From: Candidatus Babelota bacterium
GTDB lineage: Bacteria > Babelota > Babeliae > Babelales > Vermiphilaceae
Reading direction: 5' to 3'
Length of the DNA: 64,000 nucleotides
NCBI GenBank assembly: GCA_013286935.1
Contig: JABDES010000002.1
Coordinates: 62,001 to 126,000, forward strand
In this document: one piece after another, positions 6,843-62,642 of the stretch
Numbering within the stretch: position 1 is the first letter of the stretch
Layout: the number at the start of each line of letters is the position of its first letter
Program-made: the position numbers and the translations under genes
Notes under the pieces: model-generated
What the model saw: the letters and a program-made list of their open reading frames with translations, nothing else
The model's database searches: none
Told to the model about the DNA's origin: nothing

Positions 6843-9008
6843 TTATCGACTTACATTTTTGTAATAACTTGCCGTTGCAGTATCAAGATTTGAAAGGGAG
6901 ATAAGATCTGGATCAACACCATTAAAATTTGGTGGACAATTAATCACCGTACAATTATAGACAAATGCGGCTAATCCGCCTGATGCGCCGCTAACATCAA
7001 TTCCGCCACCACCACACGCAGCTATCTTGCATGATTGTATAAGAATATCTGCAAGAGGATCTGCTGATGATGCACTTATGCCAATACCTGCTGCAGTTTC
7101 TATACGGCTATTTTCAATAGTGATTTCATTACTTATAGTACCGCCAATAAGAATCCCGTTTGAGTTAGGATTTGAAATAGTAGCTTGAGAGATGGTGACG
7201 AATTTAGAATCAATCAAAGAAATGCCTTCTGCCCGCGCCCCATTGATAATGGCATTATTAATAGCGACACTTACTCCATTGGTAATATCAATACCAGACC
7301 CATTTGAGCCATTAATAGTGCAATTACGTATAGTTATATTGGTACTTAGAGTTGCACCGCCCAGAAGAATTCCGGCGCCTCCTGATGATTTGATAGTAGT
7401 ACCGTCCACGCTTATTCTTTGAACATTGCTCATATCGATGGCCGTATTGTTAGACCCAGATATAGTGCATCCACTAATATCAACATCCGAAGTCGTTCCA
7501 GTCATCAATACACCCTGAGCACCTGATGCTACAATCTTACAATCCGAAAAAGTAATATTTTGAGCATTAGACAAAGTAAGACCAGTATTGCCTGCACCTA
7601 CAAAAGCTGAACTTAAGATAGCAACAGAGTTCGCATTATTGAACAACATAGCATCCGATCCACAGGAATTTATATTGGTATTGTCTATCGTAACATTTTG
7701 AGCATTAGACAAAGTAAGACCCCTGTTTCCAGCGCCAACAAGAGTTGAATTCAAGATAGCGGCAGAGTTCACATTGTTGAACAACATAGCGTCCGATCCG
7801 CAAGTATTTATATTGGTATTGTCTATCGTAACATTTTGCACATTAGACAAAGTAAGACCACTGTTTCCAGCGCCAACAAGAGTTGAATTCAAGATGGAAA
7901 TAAAATCAACATTGTTGAACAACATAGTATCCGACCCAGCAACGTTTATGCTGGTATTCTCTATCGTAATATGTTGAGCATCATCAATTTCTATACCAAC
8001 AGTGCCAACACCCGTGATAGCACTATTGAGGATGAGTATGTTGTTGCTAGTAGGAGTATTAATGAGAATTCCTTGCGCTCCCGTAGAATTAATATTGATA
8101 TTATTCATCGAAATATTTTGGCAATTAGCAATGAAGATACCTTGATTGACCATACGAAGCATCTCGCAATTAAGCAGCTGAACACTGTTGACGTTATTCA
8201 TAGCAACAGCAGTATTTTGACAATCACAAAAATGGCAATTTACAATATCCCATTCTGCTGAAGTACCCTCAAGCTTAATAGCGGTATCCCCGCCGTCGGC
8301 AAAGAAGCAATTGTCTACTAAAGACGGTATTGCAGAGCTAGTTGCATGGATGCCTAACAGGTTAAATCTAAAAAGACAGTTTCTTACGTATGCGCCCACA
8401 GATAAGGCATTAAACTCTATAGATGTGCCCAATGCAATAAAGCTACAATTGGTTATGCTTGTAGGAAAGGAGTTCCCTATGACAATACCCGTCGTTCCCA
8501 AAAATCCTTCTGATGCAAAGATAATGTCTTTTGCTTCAATTATATATCCTTCCACCAACACAAATGAGCCAGTTGCAAGAAGCGCACCGCCACCAATTAA
8601 CAGGGTAGGAGAATCCGCCTCAATCATAGTCGCCTGACTTGATTGAAAAACATGACACGCAAGATTTATAGTGGCCGGTGATAAATCGGGAACAGCTACT
8701 GTAATGGCCGACGCTGTCCCTGTATATTTAATCTCTTCGCCAAGCGAATAGATTCCACCGGTGGTAATGGTAATAGGAAGATCTGTATTGCGCAGTACGG
8801 ATCCGGCACAGTTACTGCCTTGAATTTCGTTGAGCTGGGTCCAGATTGATGTCCCGATACCTGAAACGCCATTGAGGGGGTCACATACTACCGCCACCAA
8901 ACCCTGACTGTATATGAACATGGCACATATAAACAATAAGAAGGATCTTGCTCGATTATTACAATACACAACGTTGAGCTTTATAAAGAATATATAAATA
9001 CTTTTCAC
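6843..9008 (-). CDS. Exported right-handed parallel beta-helix repeat protein
   Basis: A GTG start is chosen because AAGGAG lies 6 bases before it, giving 721 residues. A long hydrophobic N-terminal segment (about residues 20-42, 'ARSFLLFICAMFIYSQGLVA') is a signal peptide. Nearly all of the rest is short beta rungs of the 'ITIENTSIN' or 'VTIDNTNIN' type with Asn ladders, as in pectate-lyase-like parallel beta-helices. No enzyme active site was recognised, so this is more likely a surface adhesin or polysaccharide-binding protein than a proven lyase. Three rungs are duplicated almost exactly at DNA level (see 7570-7983). Confidence 0.82.
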   Translation of the reverse strand: MKSIYIFFIKLNVVYCNNRARSFLLFICAMFIYSQGLVAVVCDPLNGVSGIGTSIWTQLNEIQGSNCAGSVLRNTDLPITITTGGIYSLGEEIKYTGTASAITVAVPDLSPATINLACHVFQSSQATMIEADSPTLLIGGGALLATGSFVLVEGYIIEAKDIIFASEGFLGTTGIVIGNSFPTSITNCSFIALGTSIEFNALSVGAYVRNCLFRFNLLGIHATSSAIPSLVDNCFFADGGDTAIKLEGTSAEWDIVNCHFCDCQNTAVAMNNVNSVQLLNCEMLRMVNQGIFIANCQNISMNNININSTGAQGILINTPTSNNILILNSAITGVGTVGIEIDDAQHITIENTSINVAGSDTMLFNNVDFISILNSTLVGAGNSGLTLSNVQNVTIDNTNINTCGSDAMLFNNVNSAAILNSTLVGAGNRGLTLSNAQNVTIDNTNINSCGSDAMLFNNANSVAILSSAFVGAGNTGLTLSNAQNITFSDCKIVASGAQGVLMTGTTSDVDISGCTISGSNNTAIDMSNVQRISVDGTTIKSSGGAGILLGGATLSTNITIRNCTINGSNGSGIDITNGVSVAINNAIINGARAEGISLIDSKFVTISQATISNPNSNGILIGGTISNEITIENSRIETAAGIGISASSADPLADILIQSCKIAACGGGGIDVSGASGGLAAFVYNCTVINCPPNFNGVDPDLISLSNLDTATASYYKNVSR
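7570..7983 (-). repeat. Three tandem 138-bp in-gene repeats
   Basis: The landmark gacaaagtaagacc recurs at 7570, 7708 and 7846, a period of exactly 138 bases or 46 codons. Each unit encodes two beta-helix turns containing 'NSTLVGAGN' and 'GSDAMLFNN'-like text. Near-identity suggests recent duplication or gene conversion. Confidence 0.8.
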
Positions 9009-9109
9009 CAGGATCTCCTTATAATTACTTTCTAATGTTAAAAGCATCATAGCACCTCGCATCCAAAAACCAAGCAGTCATATTCTTCAATTAAGCAACA
9101 GATGAATTT

Positions 9110-10015
9110 TTATTGATTATAATGCACGTCAATGTGCCTTTTGATGGCCCCATTGACCATTAATTGCGGTAAATCGCATATGCCAAGCGGTTGTGCTATA
9201 TGCTTGACTTCATCCAACTTTTTTGGAATGCAAAAGCTTATAATGTGGTCACAAGTCTCTATCGGTAATACGGTCAGGCCACTCCTAAGCAATACGCAAT
9301 TTCGCACTAAATTTCTACGATCTCGAAAAAGCAAGAGGAGCTCCTTAAGTATGTATGCTCGTTTTTTATAAGCTTCCGCACTCATGTCTTCAGCCAAATC
9401 ACTTTGATAGTAGAACAAGCATTCTTTTTTTCTCTGTAACTCTAAGCTATTTATCGTATTCAAATAATTTATCTTTAAATGGTCTAAAGGAGAACGCCAA
9501 GAACTACTAGGGTAAAAATCTTTTAAGGTCTGAGTACTGGGAGTAAAACGCATATCAGCCCAACATCGTAATAATATCTTTACAATCGATGGCGCAGAAG
9601 GGGTAACATGAGTAACAGCAATAGAAAGTGCTGTGCGAAGACTAGAAGGAGAAGGCCAACATGTGTCGCTGACAGGTGGCAAAAGAATGTCAATATCTTC
9701 AGGTTTTTTCAAATGTCGAACAACGCGCTCCATGGTTTCGCCATTTCCATACGCGGCAGCGAAGTGCAACGGAATTGTCAGATGTTCCTTATGTGCTTGA
9801 AAAAAGGCATGCAATAAAGTAGGCGAGCAAGCACCGTGTGGGTCTGATTTCAAATGGTCATCTGTTGTTTCAAGATCGCCAGTTAATATGCCTGTCTGAG
9901 CAAAACTTAAGCCTGCCAACGACGTACCGACCCACGGTGTTCTACTAACCGATGTATCCATACCCATAGCATTAGGCGCTAGTAGCATAACAGTAATGAT
10001 AACAAAAAAATTCAT
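9110..10015 (-). CDS. Exported ankyrin-repeat-like protein
   Basis: A 301-residue protein with a hydrophobic signal peptide (MNFFVIITVMLLAPNAMG). At least one ankyrin-type unit is readable ('TIPLHFAAAYGNGETMERVV', about residues 76-95), and a second weaker unit sits near 'TALSIAVTHVTPSAPSIVKI'. The C-terminus contains 'LPIETCDHIISFCIP', which resembles the short F-box/PRANC-like ends of ankyrin effectors, but that is only a resemblance. It belongs with the ankyrin genes that follow on the other strand. Confidence 0.7.
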   Translation of the reverse strand: MNFFVIITVMLLAPNAMGMDTSVSRTPWVGTSLAGLSFAQTGILTGDLETTDDHLKSDPHGACSPTLLHAFFQAHKEHLTIPLHFAAAYGNGETMERVVRHLKKPEDIDILLPPVSDTCWPSPSSLRTALSIAVTHVTPSAPSIVKILLRCWADMRFTPSTQTLKDFYPSSSWRSPLDHLKINYLNTINSLELQRKKECLFYYQSDLAEDMSAEAYKKRAYILKELLLLFRDRRNLVRNCVLLRSGLTVLPIETCDHIISFCIPKKLDEVKHIAQPLGICDLPQLMVNGAIKRHIDVHYNQ

Positions 10016-22398: not shown

Positions 22399-22776
22399 AT
22401 GAAAATAGTACTGATGTTGGCAAGTATTACCTACTGTACCATGCCTTATGCTGCACAAGACTCTAATATTCATCGCACAACACAAGCATACAACACAATC
22501 ACATTACCAGCGGCTGGGGTTTTAGAGGAGCGTCTTTTTCAAGAAGAGGCAATAAAGGCTTTTTGCCAAAAAACCAACCTCATCAAACAATTGGCAAACC
22601 TAAAAGGCCACCCAACCGGAGTTGTTCAGGTTGTCGAAATAGGCTTGTTTCGATATAAGCATATGTCAACAAAGCATTTTGATCTGTCGCCTCACAGGCA
22701 TACGATTATTGAACGAATCTTGCAAGATCACCCAGAAGCAATAGAGGACCTAAAAGCACGACGACTTTTATCGTAA
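22399..22776 (+). CDS. Small exported protein, paralogue A
   Basis: A 125-residue protein with signal peptide (MKIVLMLASITYCTMPYAAQ) and AAGGA ribosome binding site. No known family. Its second half ('GHPTGVVQVVEIGLFRYKHM' and 'ILQDHPEAIEDLKARRLL') aligns with the next gene ('WHPVSIVTMIELYLLEHKKS' and 'LLQDHPEILKKLESKGLL'), so the two are tandem paralogues in a probable two-gene operon 30 bases apart. Confidence 0.7.
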   Translation: MKIVLMLASITYCTMPYAAQDSNIHRTTQAYNTITLPAAGVLEERLFQEEAIKAFCQKTNLIKQLANLKGHPTGVVQVVEIGLFRYKHMSTKHFDLSPHRHTIIERILQDHPEAIEDLKARRLLS

Positions 22777-22806: not shown

Positions 22807-23256
22807 ATGCGCCAAAGCTTTAATCCATACTTTTCATGTACGTCGCTCATCACACTTGCCCTTGTGTCGACTACATTCACATCTCTCTTGCCGTGCCAAG
22901 TGGTATTATCTCCAAAAGAAAAAATGCACATGATAGCGAAAACAATGGCCAATGCTGATGCAATACAGATGCCAACAACCGATACATTGTGGCAATACCT
23001 TAAAGATCAAGGGTTAGATGCTATCGTAAGAGGTACAGACGTAGTTGAAGATTTAGCCGAAAAAAAATGGCACCCTGTATCCATAGTCACGATGATAGAG
23101 TTGTATCTCTTAGAGCATAAGAAATCTATTAAAGAGAGTAACCCTTCACAATGCGAAGCTATTGATGAGGGCAAAACGAAGATAATACGGACACTCTTGC
23201 AAGATCACCCAGAAATACTAAAAAAACTCGAATCAAAAGGACTTTTGGGTCTATAA
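22807..23256 (+). CDS. Small exported protein, paralogue B
   Basis: A 149-residue paralogue of the preceding gene, with a signal peptide (hydrophobic stretch about residues 10-30) and an AAAGGA ribosome binding site. The conserved C-terminal LLQDHPE block is kept. The remainder is helical, without recognised motifs. Probably cotranscribed with paralogue A. Confidence 0.7.
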   Translation: MRQSFNPYFSCTSLITLALVSTTFTSLLPCQVVLSPKEKMHMIAKTMANADAIQMPTTDTLWQYLKDQGLDAIVRGTDVVEDLAEKKWHPVSIVTMIELYLLEHKKSIKESNPSQCEAIDEGKTKIIRTLLQDHPEILKKLESKGLLGL

Positions 23257-23436: not shown

Positions 23437-24783
23437 ATGATTAATAAACAATACGCTTTTGCAATAGTAAAATCTCTTTTTGTATGGCTTGCTGTGGTGT
23501 TTGGAGTGGCTGATATATGTGCTAGTCAATCACCAAGCGATTCCACAAGAAAAGTCTCATTTAATATTGCTACACAGCCTGGTCGCATAAAAAAACCATC
23601 ACAAAAAACAACGGTGGCAGAATTGACGGTTCCTGAAATGATTCAGAAGGCAAAAATCTTGCAGAGTAATATCAATGACCAAGAACAGGATATAGCCAAT
23701 TTAGATGCCAAGATTAAGGAGACAAGTCAAAATTTGGATGTTAGCTTTATGCTCGGCAACCTGTTACCGCTCCAACAACAAAAAGCAAATAGCCTCAATG
23801 CTCTTGGGCGCCTTTTAAATGAAAAAGCAGATTTAGATGATACAATTAATGAAGAAATAAGCTCCCTGACTCGTGAAAATATACCTGGAATTGATGAATG
23901 GGAGATTAGTTCAAAGGGTGCAAAAGAGAGGGAAATAGAAAATAAATTGCATAAGGTGCAACAAGATCTTCAACAACTAAAAACAGCAAATATTATACCT
24001 GATATGCCCTACAGCTCTAAAATCAAAGCAGCTGAGGCAAACAAACAATACAAGCAAACAAAAGCTGCAGTCAAAAGCACGATTCAAAAATCCTTTCCGC
24101 AAAGAGAAGAGGATCTAAGAAGGAGGCTTGAAATAGAGGCCAATTCCAATGCAAAAAGAGAACTATTAAAAAAGCTTGAATTTGCTACAACAGCGCGAAT
24201 GCATCTCGAAAGACAAGACCCGAATACAGATTTGAATGCTTTGCTCAAAAAACACGACGAAGCTTTTGAAGAGCTTGAAAAAGAATATGCTGCTCTCAAT
24301 CAAAGCCAAAAAACAACGCAAGGGACTGAATTGTCACAGAGCGAGAAAGAAGAAGAAGAAGGAAAGCCTCGACAGCAAGGGGAAGAGCAGGAAGCAGACA
24401 AGGATCTAGTGATAGGGGAGCTTGAGTTTGATAATCCTAGTGACACGACTACAGATGAAGATCTCAATCCACAAGAACCAGACAAGACAGAAACCGAGCA
24501 ATCAACAGAAACAATAGGGGAAAAACCAAGCCAATCACCTGCTGACCAGCCTCCAACAATAACAAATCAACCTTCATCGGCATCTAAGGCGCAAATCCCA
24601 CCTGAGCCAAAAAAAGAATCCTCAGGTTTTACAACGTCCAAAAAAGTTGGCGGAGCGCTCATTGGCATAGCGGGCATAGCAATAACTGCGTATGCTTTAA
24701 TGCGCGCGTACCGCGCATACCAAGATTACAAAAAATCACAAAACGTTACTCATAACAGGGACTCTACTAATGAACCTCTATAG
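23437..24783 (+). CDS. Exported coiled-coil protein with conserved C-terminal anchor, member 1
   Basis: A 448-residue protein with signal peptide (hydrophobic residues about 9-27) and GGAG ribosome binding site. Residues about 60-300 are almost continuous Glu/Lys/Gln heptad-like coiled coil. Then comes an acidic Pro/Thr/Gln low-complexity linker (about 300-395), a hydrophobic segment 'GGALIGIAGIAITAYALM' and the basic tail 'RAYRAYQDYK'. The final part is nearly identical to the next gene at DNA level. It overlaps the next gene by 14 bases. The architecture suggests an elongated envelope or surface fibre anchored at its C-terminus. No known family was recognised. Confidence 0.8.
   Translation: MINKQYAFAIVKSLFVWLAVVFGVADICASQSPSDSTRKVSFNIATQPGRIKKPSQKTTVAELTVPEMIQKAKILQSNINDQEQDIANLDAKIKETSQNLDVSFMLGNLLPLQQQKANSLNALGRLLNEKADLDDTINEEISSLTRENIPGIDEWEISSKGAKEREIENKLHKVQQDLQQLKTANIIPDMPYSSKIKAAEANKQYKQTKAAVKSTIQKSFPQREEDLRRRLEIEANSNAKRELLKKLEFATTARMHLERQDPNTDLNALLKKHDEAFEELEKEYAALNQSQKTTQGTELSQSEKEEEEGKPRQQGEEQEADKDLVIGELEFDNPSDTTTDEDLNPQEPDKTETEQSTETIGEKPSQSPADQPPTITNQPSSASKAQIPPEPKKESSGFTTSKKVGGALIGIAGIAITAYALMRAYRAYQDYKKSQNVTHNRDSTNEPL
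24616..24744 (+). repeat. 129-bp direct repeat, copy 1 (anchor cassette)
   Basis: This 129-base stretch encodes the C-terminal anchor of member 1 and is nearly identical to 25862-25990 in member 2, with scattered mostly silent differences. It contains the palindrome ATGCGCG/CGCGCAT. Confidence 0.85.
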
Positions 24784-26029
24784 CAACCAATTTAGACTGA
24801 TTTTAATAGCAATAGCCTGCTTATTGGGACACATGTGTCTTGAAAGCAAGGGCGCTTTTGGTGAAGGTTTTGATGAGCAATACGCAATCAAAACAATATC
24901 AGACTACAATCCAGACTACACCGCTGTAGACAAAAAAACACGAGAGACGAACTTGAAGACCCTAGCAAATTTCAAAAAAGGCCTGCAGGCAAAGAAAGAC
25001 TTAGCAAAATTGAGCATTGGAATGGGCCAATCTACGTTTTGTTGGGAATACAACTTAACAGAAATAAACCTTAAAAATATTAACACGGCATTAGAAAAAA
25101 TTGGACTTATAGAAGAGGGCTTTAGGAAAGCAGCGCAATCCATGCCAAACAATCCACCACAAGTCCCTACCGCCGAACTTGTCGTTGCAACAAACACCAC
25201 GCCACAAACAAGTAGTCAACAAGAACTACCACCACCATCACCACCACCACCACCGCTATCACCAAGAAACACTGAATCACCATCGTCGCACCAGCCTCCA
25301 CCACTGCCAACAAAGCCGTCAGAGTCGGAGGAAAAGACAGCGACACCAATACAGCTACCAGAATCTCAAAAAGTGCAGCCTGAGAGTGACACAACTGCGC
25401 CAATACCACCGACATCACAACCTTCAACTGATGATCAAGAGGTTACAAAAACAAACATAGCGCCACAGCCTGATTGGATAAACTCTTTAGATGCAGCATC
25501 TGAAAGAAGAGATATTAACGAGAATGAGCTGATCCATGCATTCTTAGATATATCGGAATCAGCTACGCTTGATGAGTTAGAGGGCAAGTTGCTGAAAGAA
25601 AAAGAGAACAATGCGCAAAAGGCGTTCCGCCATGGAGACACAATTTGGAATCGAGCCAAAATGCAAAATGGACTCACAATTAAGAAATTATTGAGTGCGA
25701 TTAGCTATTTGAAACAACAGACAAAAAATCAAGAAGAGCAAGAAAAAAGGACTCAGTGGTTAGCTGGGGTGGATGCATCAATGAAGAAAAATACAGAAGA
25801 GAGAAACAGAGAACGCCTAAAGAAAAAAGATCAAAACAAACGGGAAGCACAAACTCCACAAGAATCCTCAGGCCTTACAACGCACAAAAAAGTTGGCGGG
25901 GCGCTTATTGGCATAGCGGGCATAGCGATAACTGCGTATGCCTTAATGCGCGCGTACCGCGCATACCAAGATTATAAAGCATCACAAAATGCTAATTGCG
26001 ATCCAGAAACAAACATCCAGGGTGAATAA
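24770..26029 (+). CDS. Exported low-complexity protein with conserved C-terminal anchor, member 2
   Basis: A 419-residue protein starting inside the end of member 1. The signal peptide contains 'LILIAIACLLGHMCLESKG'. A helical region precedes a long Pro/Ser/Gln tract (about residues 140-235) encoded partly by CCA/CAC runs. A second charged helical region follows, then the same anchor as member 1, 'GGALIGIAGIAITAYALM' and 'RAYRAYQDYK'. Outside the anchor the two proteins do not align clearly, which implies shuffling of a shared C-terminal cassette onto different bodies. Confidence 0.8.
   Translation: MNLYSNQFRLILIAIACLLGHMCLESKGAFGEGFDEQYAIKTISDYNPDYTAVDKKTRETNLKTLANFKKGLQAKKDLAKLSIGMGQSTFCWEYNLTEINLKNINTALEKIGLIEEGFRKAAQSMPNNPPQVPTAELVVATNTTPQTSSQQELPPPSPPPPPLSPRNTESPSSHQPPPLPTKPSESEEKTATPIQLPESQKVQPESDTTAPIPPTSQPSTDDQEVTKTNIAPQPDWINSLDAASERRDINENELIHAFLDISESATLDELEGKLLKEKENNAQKAFRHGDTIWNRAKMQNGLTIKKLLSAISYLKQQTKNQEEQEKRTQWLAGVDASMKKNTEERNRERLKKKDQNKREAQTPQESSGLTTHKKVGGALIGIAGIAITAYALMRAYRAYQDYKASQNANCDPETNIQGE
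25862..25990 (+). repeat. 129-bp direct repeat, copy 2 (anchor cassette)
   Basis: Second copy of the anchor cassette, the same length as 24616-24744 and nearly identical to it. Confidence 0.85.
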
Positions 26030-26031
26030 AA

Positions 26032-27195
26032 ATGAGCTTCAATAAAAATCAACTCGCGATACTTTTTATATCTATATTCTGTCTGCTTGGCCACACTTGC
26101 TTTGATGCAAAATGCTCAATGGAGGATTTTGATGCAACGTTTTTGCCATATCCAGATCAGGTTGAAAAACGCCTAAAAAGCTTTACGCCAAACATAGAAA
26201 CATTAAAGGAGTACAAAGCTACGCTTTTAAAAGAGCGAGACGATGCAGTATTTGACTTAAAGATAATTAGAGATTTTTACATACGAAACTCCAGAATTAA
26301 AACAATTGCTCAAATTGATAATCTACTAAAGGATATTGAAATTATCGAAGGCAATATAAACAATCCGCCAAAGCCTTTGGTGCAAAATCCAGAATTCTCT
26401 ACAATTGTCCCTCAAGGCAATACTCAACCATTAACAGTAGAAACACCACAAGGACAGTCGTTAGCACCGTCATCATCATCATCATCACAAGCAGAAGCGA
26501 CACAAAAAACAGCAGAAACTTCATCGACACAGCCACTTCCACAAACTCAGCCGCTAGACAAAGAGCAATTACAGGCAGATCCAGGTTATTATCCAGTAGA
26601 TGAAGAAAAAAACGAGCGAGAGCGAGTCGCACTGAGAAAACAACAACAAGAGTATCATCTCAAAGCCCAAAGAAAAAAGGAGCAGGAACAAAGTCGCGAA
26701 GACAAAAAGAAGCTTGACAAGGAGATAAAAGAGCTTGGCGAAGAACTAGAAGAGCGCAACAAGAAGCAGCGCATCGAAGAGCAAGAAAAACTCAAGCAAA
26801 ATCAACTTGACAAGCAGACGCAACAGCGCGCCCAAGAACAAAAAGAAATCGAACAGATCAGAACTAACAACAAAAACAAGCAAGCAGAGGATCTTCGAAT
26901 CGCAACGGAGCGAGAGCAAGCAAAAATGAATGCGATATGGGACGAGCAAGACCGACGAAACGCGCAGAAGGAATCAAAGCCCGCCCAGCAAGATCAAGAC
27001 CAACAAAATCAACCAGAGATAACCGATCAAGACCAATCGCAAGCAACTCCTCCATCGCCCATGATAACTAGAGGTCGACTTGGGGCATTTATTGGCATGC
27101 TAGGCGCAGCAATAGGTCTGTATTATATAATTCATGCATACCGCCAACAGACCAATAAGACGGCAAAGTCAGTCGTAACCGAAGAAAAAAAATAA
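26032..27195 (+). CDS. Exported coiled-coil protein with related C-terminal anchor, member 3
   Basis: A 387-residue protein two bases after member 2. The signal peptide 'AILFISIFCLLGHTCFDAKC' resembles that of member 2 (both contain CLLGHxC). A Ser/Gln/Thr tract encoded by TCA repeats is followed by a very charged Glu/Lys/Arg/Gln coiled coil (about residues 200-310). The anchor is a diverged form, 'GAFIGMLGAAIGLYYIIHAY' then RQQ. It belongs to the same operon and architecture as members 1 and 2. Confidence 0.8.
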   Translation: MSFNKNQLAILFISIFCLLGHTCFDAKCSMEDFDATFLPYPDQVEKRLKSFTPNIETLKEYKATLLKERDDAVFDLKIIRDFYIRNSRIKTIAQIDNLLKDIEIIEGNINNPPKPLVQNPEFSTIVPQGNTQPLTVETPQGQSLAPSSSSSSQAEATQKTAETSSTQPLPQTQPLDKEQLQADPGYYPVDEEKNERERVALRKQQQEYHLKAQRKKEQEQSREDKKKLDKEIKELGEELEERNKKQRIEEQEKLKQNQLDKQTQQRAQEQKEIEQIRTNNKNKQAEDLRIATEREQAKMNAIWDEQDRRNAQKESKPAQQDQDQQNQPEITDQDQSQATPPSPMITRGRLGAFIGMLGAAIGLYYIIHAYRQQTNKTAKSVVTEEKK

Positions 27196-61931: not shown

Positions 61932-62642
61932 ATGACATACATTTTTAGCAGATTATCAGGAAAATGGTTTTTACCCACAATGACTGGCTTGCTGTTGCTG
62001 CTGCCGTGCGTAGGAGCATGGGGTGCTTTGTCGACACCTTCAGTATCAGAGGCTCTTAAAGATGTGAGCATTGGCGGTTCTGACGCAGGGGCGCTAGCAA
62101 AAAGACTTCACAAGGTAGGAATAGACTCAGAACTATTTCGTACAACCTTCGATCGTGACTCTCATATGTTCAGAAATCTTAAGGATAAAACTACACCTGC
62201 CCTAAGCGAGATGCTCAACAAGGAGATGACCGCCAAGCAATTTGAACGCATAACAGCAACATTAAATGACACATACATGCAACTTAGAGAATTGGAGCCC
62301 AGAGAGGCAGTTTCGGTATGGCACCTCGAAAATCCTCAAACTATCAAAGAAGAAGAAAATCTTAACCAAGAAGAAGAAGAAGAAGAAGAAGAAGAAGAAG
62401 AACCTAAACCGCCCCTCACCCATCCCTCACAAACATCACCACCCAAACAAGACACGGGCGAGCCTGAGCCACATGTCTCATCAAGCAACCCATCAAAAGA
62501 GACAACTCCTCCTAGTGACCTACCGCGACTAGCCCTGAAAATAGGCGTAGGTGCCGTAGTATTAGCAGCAGTTGTATATGCAGCAATAAAAGCATATAAG
62601 CACTGGTACCCACAACGAACATCTGCTTTCGATGAACAATAA
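61932..62642 (+). CDS. Exported protein with Glu run and C-terminal membrane anchor
   Basis: A 236-residue protein from the ATG preceded by AAAGGGG. It has a signal peptide (hydrophobic residues about 12-32), a helical domain and a run of Glu encoded by GAA/GAAG repeats (about residues 147-157). A Pro/Ser/Thr linker leads to an anchor 'IGVGAVVLAAVVYAAIKAYK', then HWYP and a short tail. The YxxxxAYK end matches the anchors of the 23437-27195 cluster. The last 11 bases overlap tsaD. Confidence 0.75.
   Translation: MTYIFSRLSGKWFLPTMTGLLLLLPCVGAWGALSTPSVSEALKDVSIGGSDAGALAKRLHKVGIDSELFRTTFDRDSHMFRNLKDKTTPALSEMLNKEMTAKQFERITATLNDTYMQLRELEPREAVSVWHLENPQTIKEEENLNQEEEEEEEEEEEPKPPLTHPSQTSPPKQDTGEPEPHVSSSNPSKETTPPSDLPRLALKIGVGAVVLAAVVYAAIKAYKHWYPQRTSAFDEQ

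Follow-up and report, generated by a model that had tools for sequence, protein, structure and literature searches.

Three adjacent genes at positions 23437-27195 of a 64,000-nucleotide stretch of a Candidatus Babelota genome end in the same kind of tail, which raises the question whether this tail is a processed sorting signal or a plain membrane anchor. The stretch, called the window throughout (G000:C2:62001-126000; contig JABDES010000002.1 of GenBank assembly GCA_013286935.1), belongs to an assembly of 1.087 Mb in 34 contigs with an estimated completeness of 82.7%. An original prediction, made from the letters of the window, had proposed a lineage-specific C-terminal anchoring or sorting signal with a YxxxxAY[RK] end and had likened it to the PEP-CTERM and LPXTG signals. 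Here we report that in this one small-genome bacterium, dozens of exported proteins with otherwise unrelated bodies carry a near-identical hydrophobic, Tyr-rich tail. We consider it probable that the tail acts as a type I membrane anchor, reused across proteins and left uncleaved, which multiplied through tandem duplication and the exchange of 3' ends, with rapid divergence of the bodies.

All three genes exist as predicted, each with a signal peptide, a body, one hydrophobic segment and a basic tail. Signal peptides and transmembrane (TM) segments were called from hydropathy, with charge added for topology and without trained predictors; each gene start is a guess, set at the first ATG. The first protein (w1; 23437-24783, + strand, 448 amino acids) comprises a signal peptide, a coiled-coil body (residues ~65-305), a disordered linker (~306-401) and a C-terminal TM helix with the tail AYRAYQDYKK, and its open reading frame (ORF) end reads YALMRAYRAYQDYK. 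An AlphaFold2 single-sequence model of w1 (low confidence, mean pLDDT 57.5) gave a signal helix, coiled-coil-like helices at 65-305 and a disordered linker, followed by a helix (402-438) that continued unbroken through the tail. In w2 (24770-26029, + strand, 419 amino acids), a Pro/Ser/Thr-rich, charged body lies between the signal peptide and an anchor as in w1, and the ORF end also reads YALMRAYRAYQDYK. The third protein, w3 (26032-27195, + strand, 387 amino acids), has a w2-like signal peptide, with the similarity of the two N-termini seen by sequence comparison, a charged Gln/Glu-rich body and the anchor GRLGAFIGMLGAAIGLYYIIHAYRQQTNK; its ORF end reads YYIIHAYRQQTNK. Two unlinked genes of the window have the anchor too, as had been proposed. 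These are w4 (61932-62642, + strand, 236 amino acids; LALKIGVGAVVLAAVVYAAIKAYKHWYPQR) and w0 (855-1643, - strand, 262 amino acids from the ATG at 1643; IALTTAGIITFTVLIGGLIYLYKRHQRLEK), which is the weakest of the five. That is, one design is common to w0-w4: signal peptide, divergent body, a single C-terminal TM helix and then a Tyr/Lys-Arg tail. The end of w1 overlaps the start of w2, and 2 nucleotides separate w2 from w3. We base the operon on this overlap and spacing only, because a scan for promoters and terminators found sites no more numerous than in shuffled sequences.

We then looked at the extent of the anchor family in the genome. A first profile (A1) was built from nine tails, of which the window supplied five; the other four came from loci detected through a single-sequence search with the w1 tail and through flanks. 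It matched 27 places genome-wide, 18 of them beyond the training set, and a wider profile (A2) gave 36 genome matches at E<=0.1. In the frames that were read, nearly all matches lie 2-36 residues from the stop codon and are preceded by a hydrophobic N-terminus, so that the tail, in this genome, almost always ends a protein that starts with a signal peptide. The members are found on scattered contigs, often in tandem (three each on C9, C4 and C7, four on C11, five in the L094 stretch and four in the L088 stretch). In total, 46 probable members were listed, more than the original prediction had suggested, and about 44 of these are solid; the exceptions are a doubtful member in L046 and an atypical gene in L051 (at 3026) with a second hydrophobic segment after its anchor. 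A further member (L094, + strand, 1820) was picked up through body similarity. Since ~40% of the genome was read as stretches, the member count is a lower bound. An unselected 224-kb sample (the window together with C1 and C3 stretches) contains about 15 members, which by extrapolation would correspond to perhaps about 70 in the assembly.

Within its order, only this genome shows the expansion, as the prediction of a lineage-specific anchor had implied. At E<=0.01, the profile gave 31 matches here versus 0-3 weak ones per genome in 100 others of the order; the genus is represented by one genome in this comparison set. A single-sequence search of the relatives with the w1 tail found no match outside this genome, and proteins of this architecture were essentially absent from four relatives (4 x 100 kb), versus about 15 in 224 kb here. 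The profile matches of the relatives were rejected as instances of the same module: 7 of 28 lie within 30 residues of the protein end, and mostly they are signal-peptide proteins with a mid-protein helix. In L056, L060, L063, L065, L069, L072, L078 and L079, the weak matches are mostly signal-peptide proteins in which a mid-protein Gly/Ala-rich helix with a Tyr/Lys end is followed by a long further body; this body would be cytoplasmic if the helix were a true stop-transfer segment.

The anatomy of the tail was analysed in 37 non-redundant members, aligned so that position 0 is the first polar residue following the helix. A Gly/Ala-rich TM of ~20 residues is followed by the consensus [KR]-x-Y-[RKQ]-x-Y-[KR]. 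Position 0 is Lys or Arg in 84% of the members, Tyr occupies positions -4, -1, +2 and +5 in 35, 35, 51 and 41%, and Lys or Arg is found at +3 and +6 in 46 and 43%, so that Tyr and Lys/Arg recur about every three residues. Thus, the Tyr-basic tail of the original prediction is real, but its YxxxxAY[RK] motif is not strict and gives way to graded preferences. The information content reaches 2.3 bits at position 0 and ~1-1.9 bits from +2 to +6, whereas each position from -40 to -20, before the TM, holds <=0.67 bits, and the 20 residues preceding the helix resemble Pro/Ser/Thr-rich linkers. Counted from the first polar residue, the hydrophilic tail is 9-48 residues long (median 26). About a third of the tails have Gly-Gly near the helix start.

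We confirmed that the tails resemble each other beyond chance. When each of 36 non-redundant tails was scored with a profile built after dropping all rows >=35% identical to it, 19 of the 36 reached >=10 bits, versus none of 178 other genes sampled here and none of 383 from four relatives. In a census of the 224-kb sample by topology only, 13 of the 17 proteins with a signal peptide, one C-terminal TM and a basic tail had >=2 Tyr within 12 residues of the TM end, compared with 16% of the other Lys/Arg-flanked TM ends of the same genome. Scanning 41 members against Pfam and NCBIfam, we found no family that matches the C-terminal anchor above its curated cut-off.

The bodies differ while the anchor is kept, as originally noted. 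With both ends removed, they sort into 33 groups (blastp, 1e-3); most do not align, and some neighbouring members still do. Two members, L044:2422 and L095:12543, have ankyrin repeats, and the bodies gave no other Pfam match above cut-off. At the DNA level, several anchors are shared as blocks. In w1 and w2, a 135-bp cassette (24614-24748 and 25860-25994, both + strand; the first copy reads ESSGFTTSKKVGGALIGIAGIAITAYALMRAYRAYQDYKKSQN) is 90% identical with sharp edges, and identity outside the block is random. Because the identity of their tails comes partly from this duplicated or converted block, w1 and w2 are not independent evidence. In the C7 pair, 148 bp are 98% identical and the similarity declines to chance level 150 bp before the stop codon, a value to be read with caution given an assembly gap beside one copy. 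This gap is a run of N after the first C7 anchor copy (L087, 4594 onward), and the assembly may affect the 148-bp pair. Further blocks were found in the C11 pair (97 bp at 90%) and in C10/C23 (about 200 bp at 78-87%), and in all four cases the DNA upstream of the cassette is unrelated or less alike. The nonsynonymous divergence (dN) is lower than the synonymous divergence (dS) in all seven correctly aligned close pairs (0.012-0.090 versus 0.043-0.702, with small counts per pair; 0.055 versus 0.224 for the w1/w2 cassettes), with a misregistered C3 pair and a divergent C3b pair left out. This suggests that the anchor is under purifying selection.

How might such an anchor work? By hydropathy and charge, the members have a cleavable signal peptide, one TM, a basic cytoplasmic flank and no further TM, which is the arrangement of type I proteins, and conservation is concentrated on the predicted cytoplasmic side of the helix and not before the TM. 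From this we infer the Sec route, the topology, the lack of cleavage and the retention in the inner membrane. The N-terminal signal peptide would route each protein through Sec, and the C-terminal Gly/Ala-rich helix would then halt translocation in the inner membrane. At the cytoplasmic interface, the Tyr/Lys-Arg stretch would set the orientation (positive-inside rule, aromatic belt), with the short hydrophilic tail ending in the cytoplasm. The bodies, be they coiled coils, low-complexity regions or sometimes ankyrin repeats, would thus stay tethered to the inner membrane, on its outer face, and not be released. In one lineage, tandem gene duplication together with 3'-end exchange or homogenisation may have propagated the module, while the bodies probably diverged fast. 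Some points weigh against this explanation. Within the 12-residue stretch, Tyr amounts to 2.59, versus 0.65 at other basic-flanked TM ends (the members being partly profile-selected), with an ordinary overall protein Tyr content of 3.1%; this excess is the single feature not expected of a plain anchor, and the tail may serve a specific role, for example in binding a partner or an unrecognised enzyme. In addition, the assembly may lack ~17% of the genome and with it a processing enzyme.

If the tail were instead a true sorting signal, a dedicated, unrecognised intramembrane protease or transpeptidase would cut or exchange the helix and move the body to another envelope layer. The Gly-Gly near the helix start in about a third of the tails and the apparent purifying selection are in line with such processing, which we nevertheless judge unlikely. 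In cleaved sorting signals, the motif normally faces outward and the sequence ends in basic residues (PMC3237569, PMC11980579), and this classical reading is weakened because we looked for both features and found neither: a short conserved motif before the helix was not found, and the basic cluster lies off the extreme C-terminus, a median of 26 residues separating the first polar residue from the end. The known enzymes were not found either. Exosortase (PF09721) and sortase (PF04203) were detected in none of 36 genomes of the order including this one (82.7% complete), and rhomboid (PF01694) was likewise found in 0 of 36, with all 14 control genomes positive. At least 90% completeness is reached by 26 of these 36 rhomboid-negative genomes. 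CPBP proteases (PF02517), the family to which myxosortase belongs (PMC11980579), turned up in 22 of the 36 searched genomes, but this genome gave no match. Since the same method detected M50 proteases here and in 33 of the 36 genomes, membrane proteases are detectable by it. Peptidase C25 (PF01364; type IX secretion system/PorU) gave no match, and neither did its controls. Moreover, inspection by eye of the unannotated gene listing around the clusters showed no recurrent neighbouring enzyme. Of the original interpretation, then, the shared anchor module on exported proteins stood, but the analogy with processed PEP-CTERM- or LPXTG-like signals did not. A C-terminal sorting system not previously described, in which a cytoplasmic-side Tyr/basic element, and not an outer-side motif, would be recognised by an enzyme or a receptor with no relation to sortase, exosortase, rhomboid and CPBP, seems quite improbable to us.

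Alternatively, all members might form a single fast-evolving paralogous family, for example of variable envelope or host-facing proteins, in which only the ends are constrained, anchors are not shuffled and the apparent modularity reflects body divergence past recognition. Tandem neighbours do have signal peptides as well as anchors in common (w2/w3, the C9 trio, the L094 pair and the C11 pair), and the still alignable bodies of some neighbours fit this view too, but the sharp DNA cassette edges in w1/w2 and C7 indicate 3'-end exchange itself. Moreover, the ankyrin-bearing members, among them L044:2422, have ankyrin homologues with anchor-free C-termini in relatives, a weak argument given how generic such repeats are. 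We hold such a family to be unlikely. A role of the Tyr/basic helix extension as an interaction module, which would bind a shared cytoplasmic or membrane partner and gather different bodies in a single complex or at a single site, is highly doubtful: the spacing of Tyr and Lys/Arg by about three residues and the continuous helix through the tail in the low-confidence w1 model speak for it, but no partner was identified, the positions are degenerate, and the pattern also fits the interface residues of a simple anchor.

How does the uncleaved anchor compare with known systems? Tripartite sorting signals (PEP-CTERM, LPXTG, GlyGly and MYXO) likewise place a TM helix close to the C-terminus of proteins with a signal peptide, but they combine it with a short signature motif right before the TM, where we found so little information, and with a basic cluster at the extreme C-terminus, whereas here the basic residues follow the TM with 9-48 residues to the end. 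Compared with PEP-CTERM/exosortase and LPXTG/sortase, the tail is longer and Tyr-rich, the pre-TM motif is absent and neither enzyme was found in the 36 genomes. GlyGly-CTERM/rhombosortase is similar in that some members have glycines near the helix start and in that a paralogous C-terminal domain sits on unrelated proteins; however, the glycines here lie inside the helix and are not position-conserved, and rhomboid was not found in this genome and 35 relatives. With MYXO-CTERM/myxosortase, our family shares dozens of copies per genome and the combination of signal peptide and C-terminal TM, but neither the invariant Cys before the helix nor a CPBP protease was found here. Ordinary type I single-pass anchors agree in topology, positive-inside rule and aromatic belt, yet in this genome one Tyr-basic pattern is repeated on dozens of proteins with DNA-level cassette exchange. 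The topology is already known. A single Tyr-basic anchor pattern shared by dozens of proteins with unrelated bodies, genome-restricted within the order and swapped as DNA blocks, was not found in Pfam, NCBIfam or the searched open-access literature.

If this lineage belongs to Dependentiae (Babelota), as genome size and gene content suggest, these bacteria are host-dependent, very few of their relatives in the phylum have been cultured, and much of the exported proteome lacks annotation. The profile-recognisable anchor brings together dozens of this genome's orphan proteins, assigns them a predicted location and tells anchored proteins apart from released ones. In addition, it provides a clean case of cassette exchange between adjacent genes and raises a bounded question, namely whether the tail is cut and by which enzyme. 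Exported proteins make up a large fraction of Dependentiae proteomes (PMC4378268, PMC6561590), with signal peptides in 44% of the genes of one species (PMC6561590). The secreted ankyrin-repeat proteins of Babela and Chromulinavorax resemble two of our members in combining signal peptide and ankyrin repeats, but the members here have a C-terminal anchor and are therefore probably not released.

Another exported family is apparently duplicated as well. Two highly similar exported proteins (L052:5260-6477 and 7912-9159; KPHVGRIASLGRTVVHVLNT) lie on either side of an oppositely oriented ATPase-like ORF, and L091:5673-6935 is a relative of this pair; these proteins have a C-terminal hydrophobic end and no Tyr/basic tail. 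Just 5' of the anchor operon, the window encodes two small exported proteins (22399-22776 and 22807-23256, + strand) without a C-terminal anchor, which have a 52-nucleotide stretch in common (75% identical, ..LQDHPE..). Directly 3' of the operon, three short ORFs on the opposite strand (27201-28569, -) resemble pseudopilins of type II secretion or type IV pilus systems.

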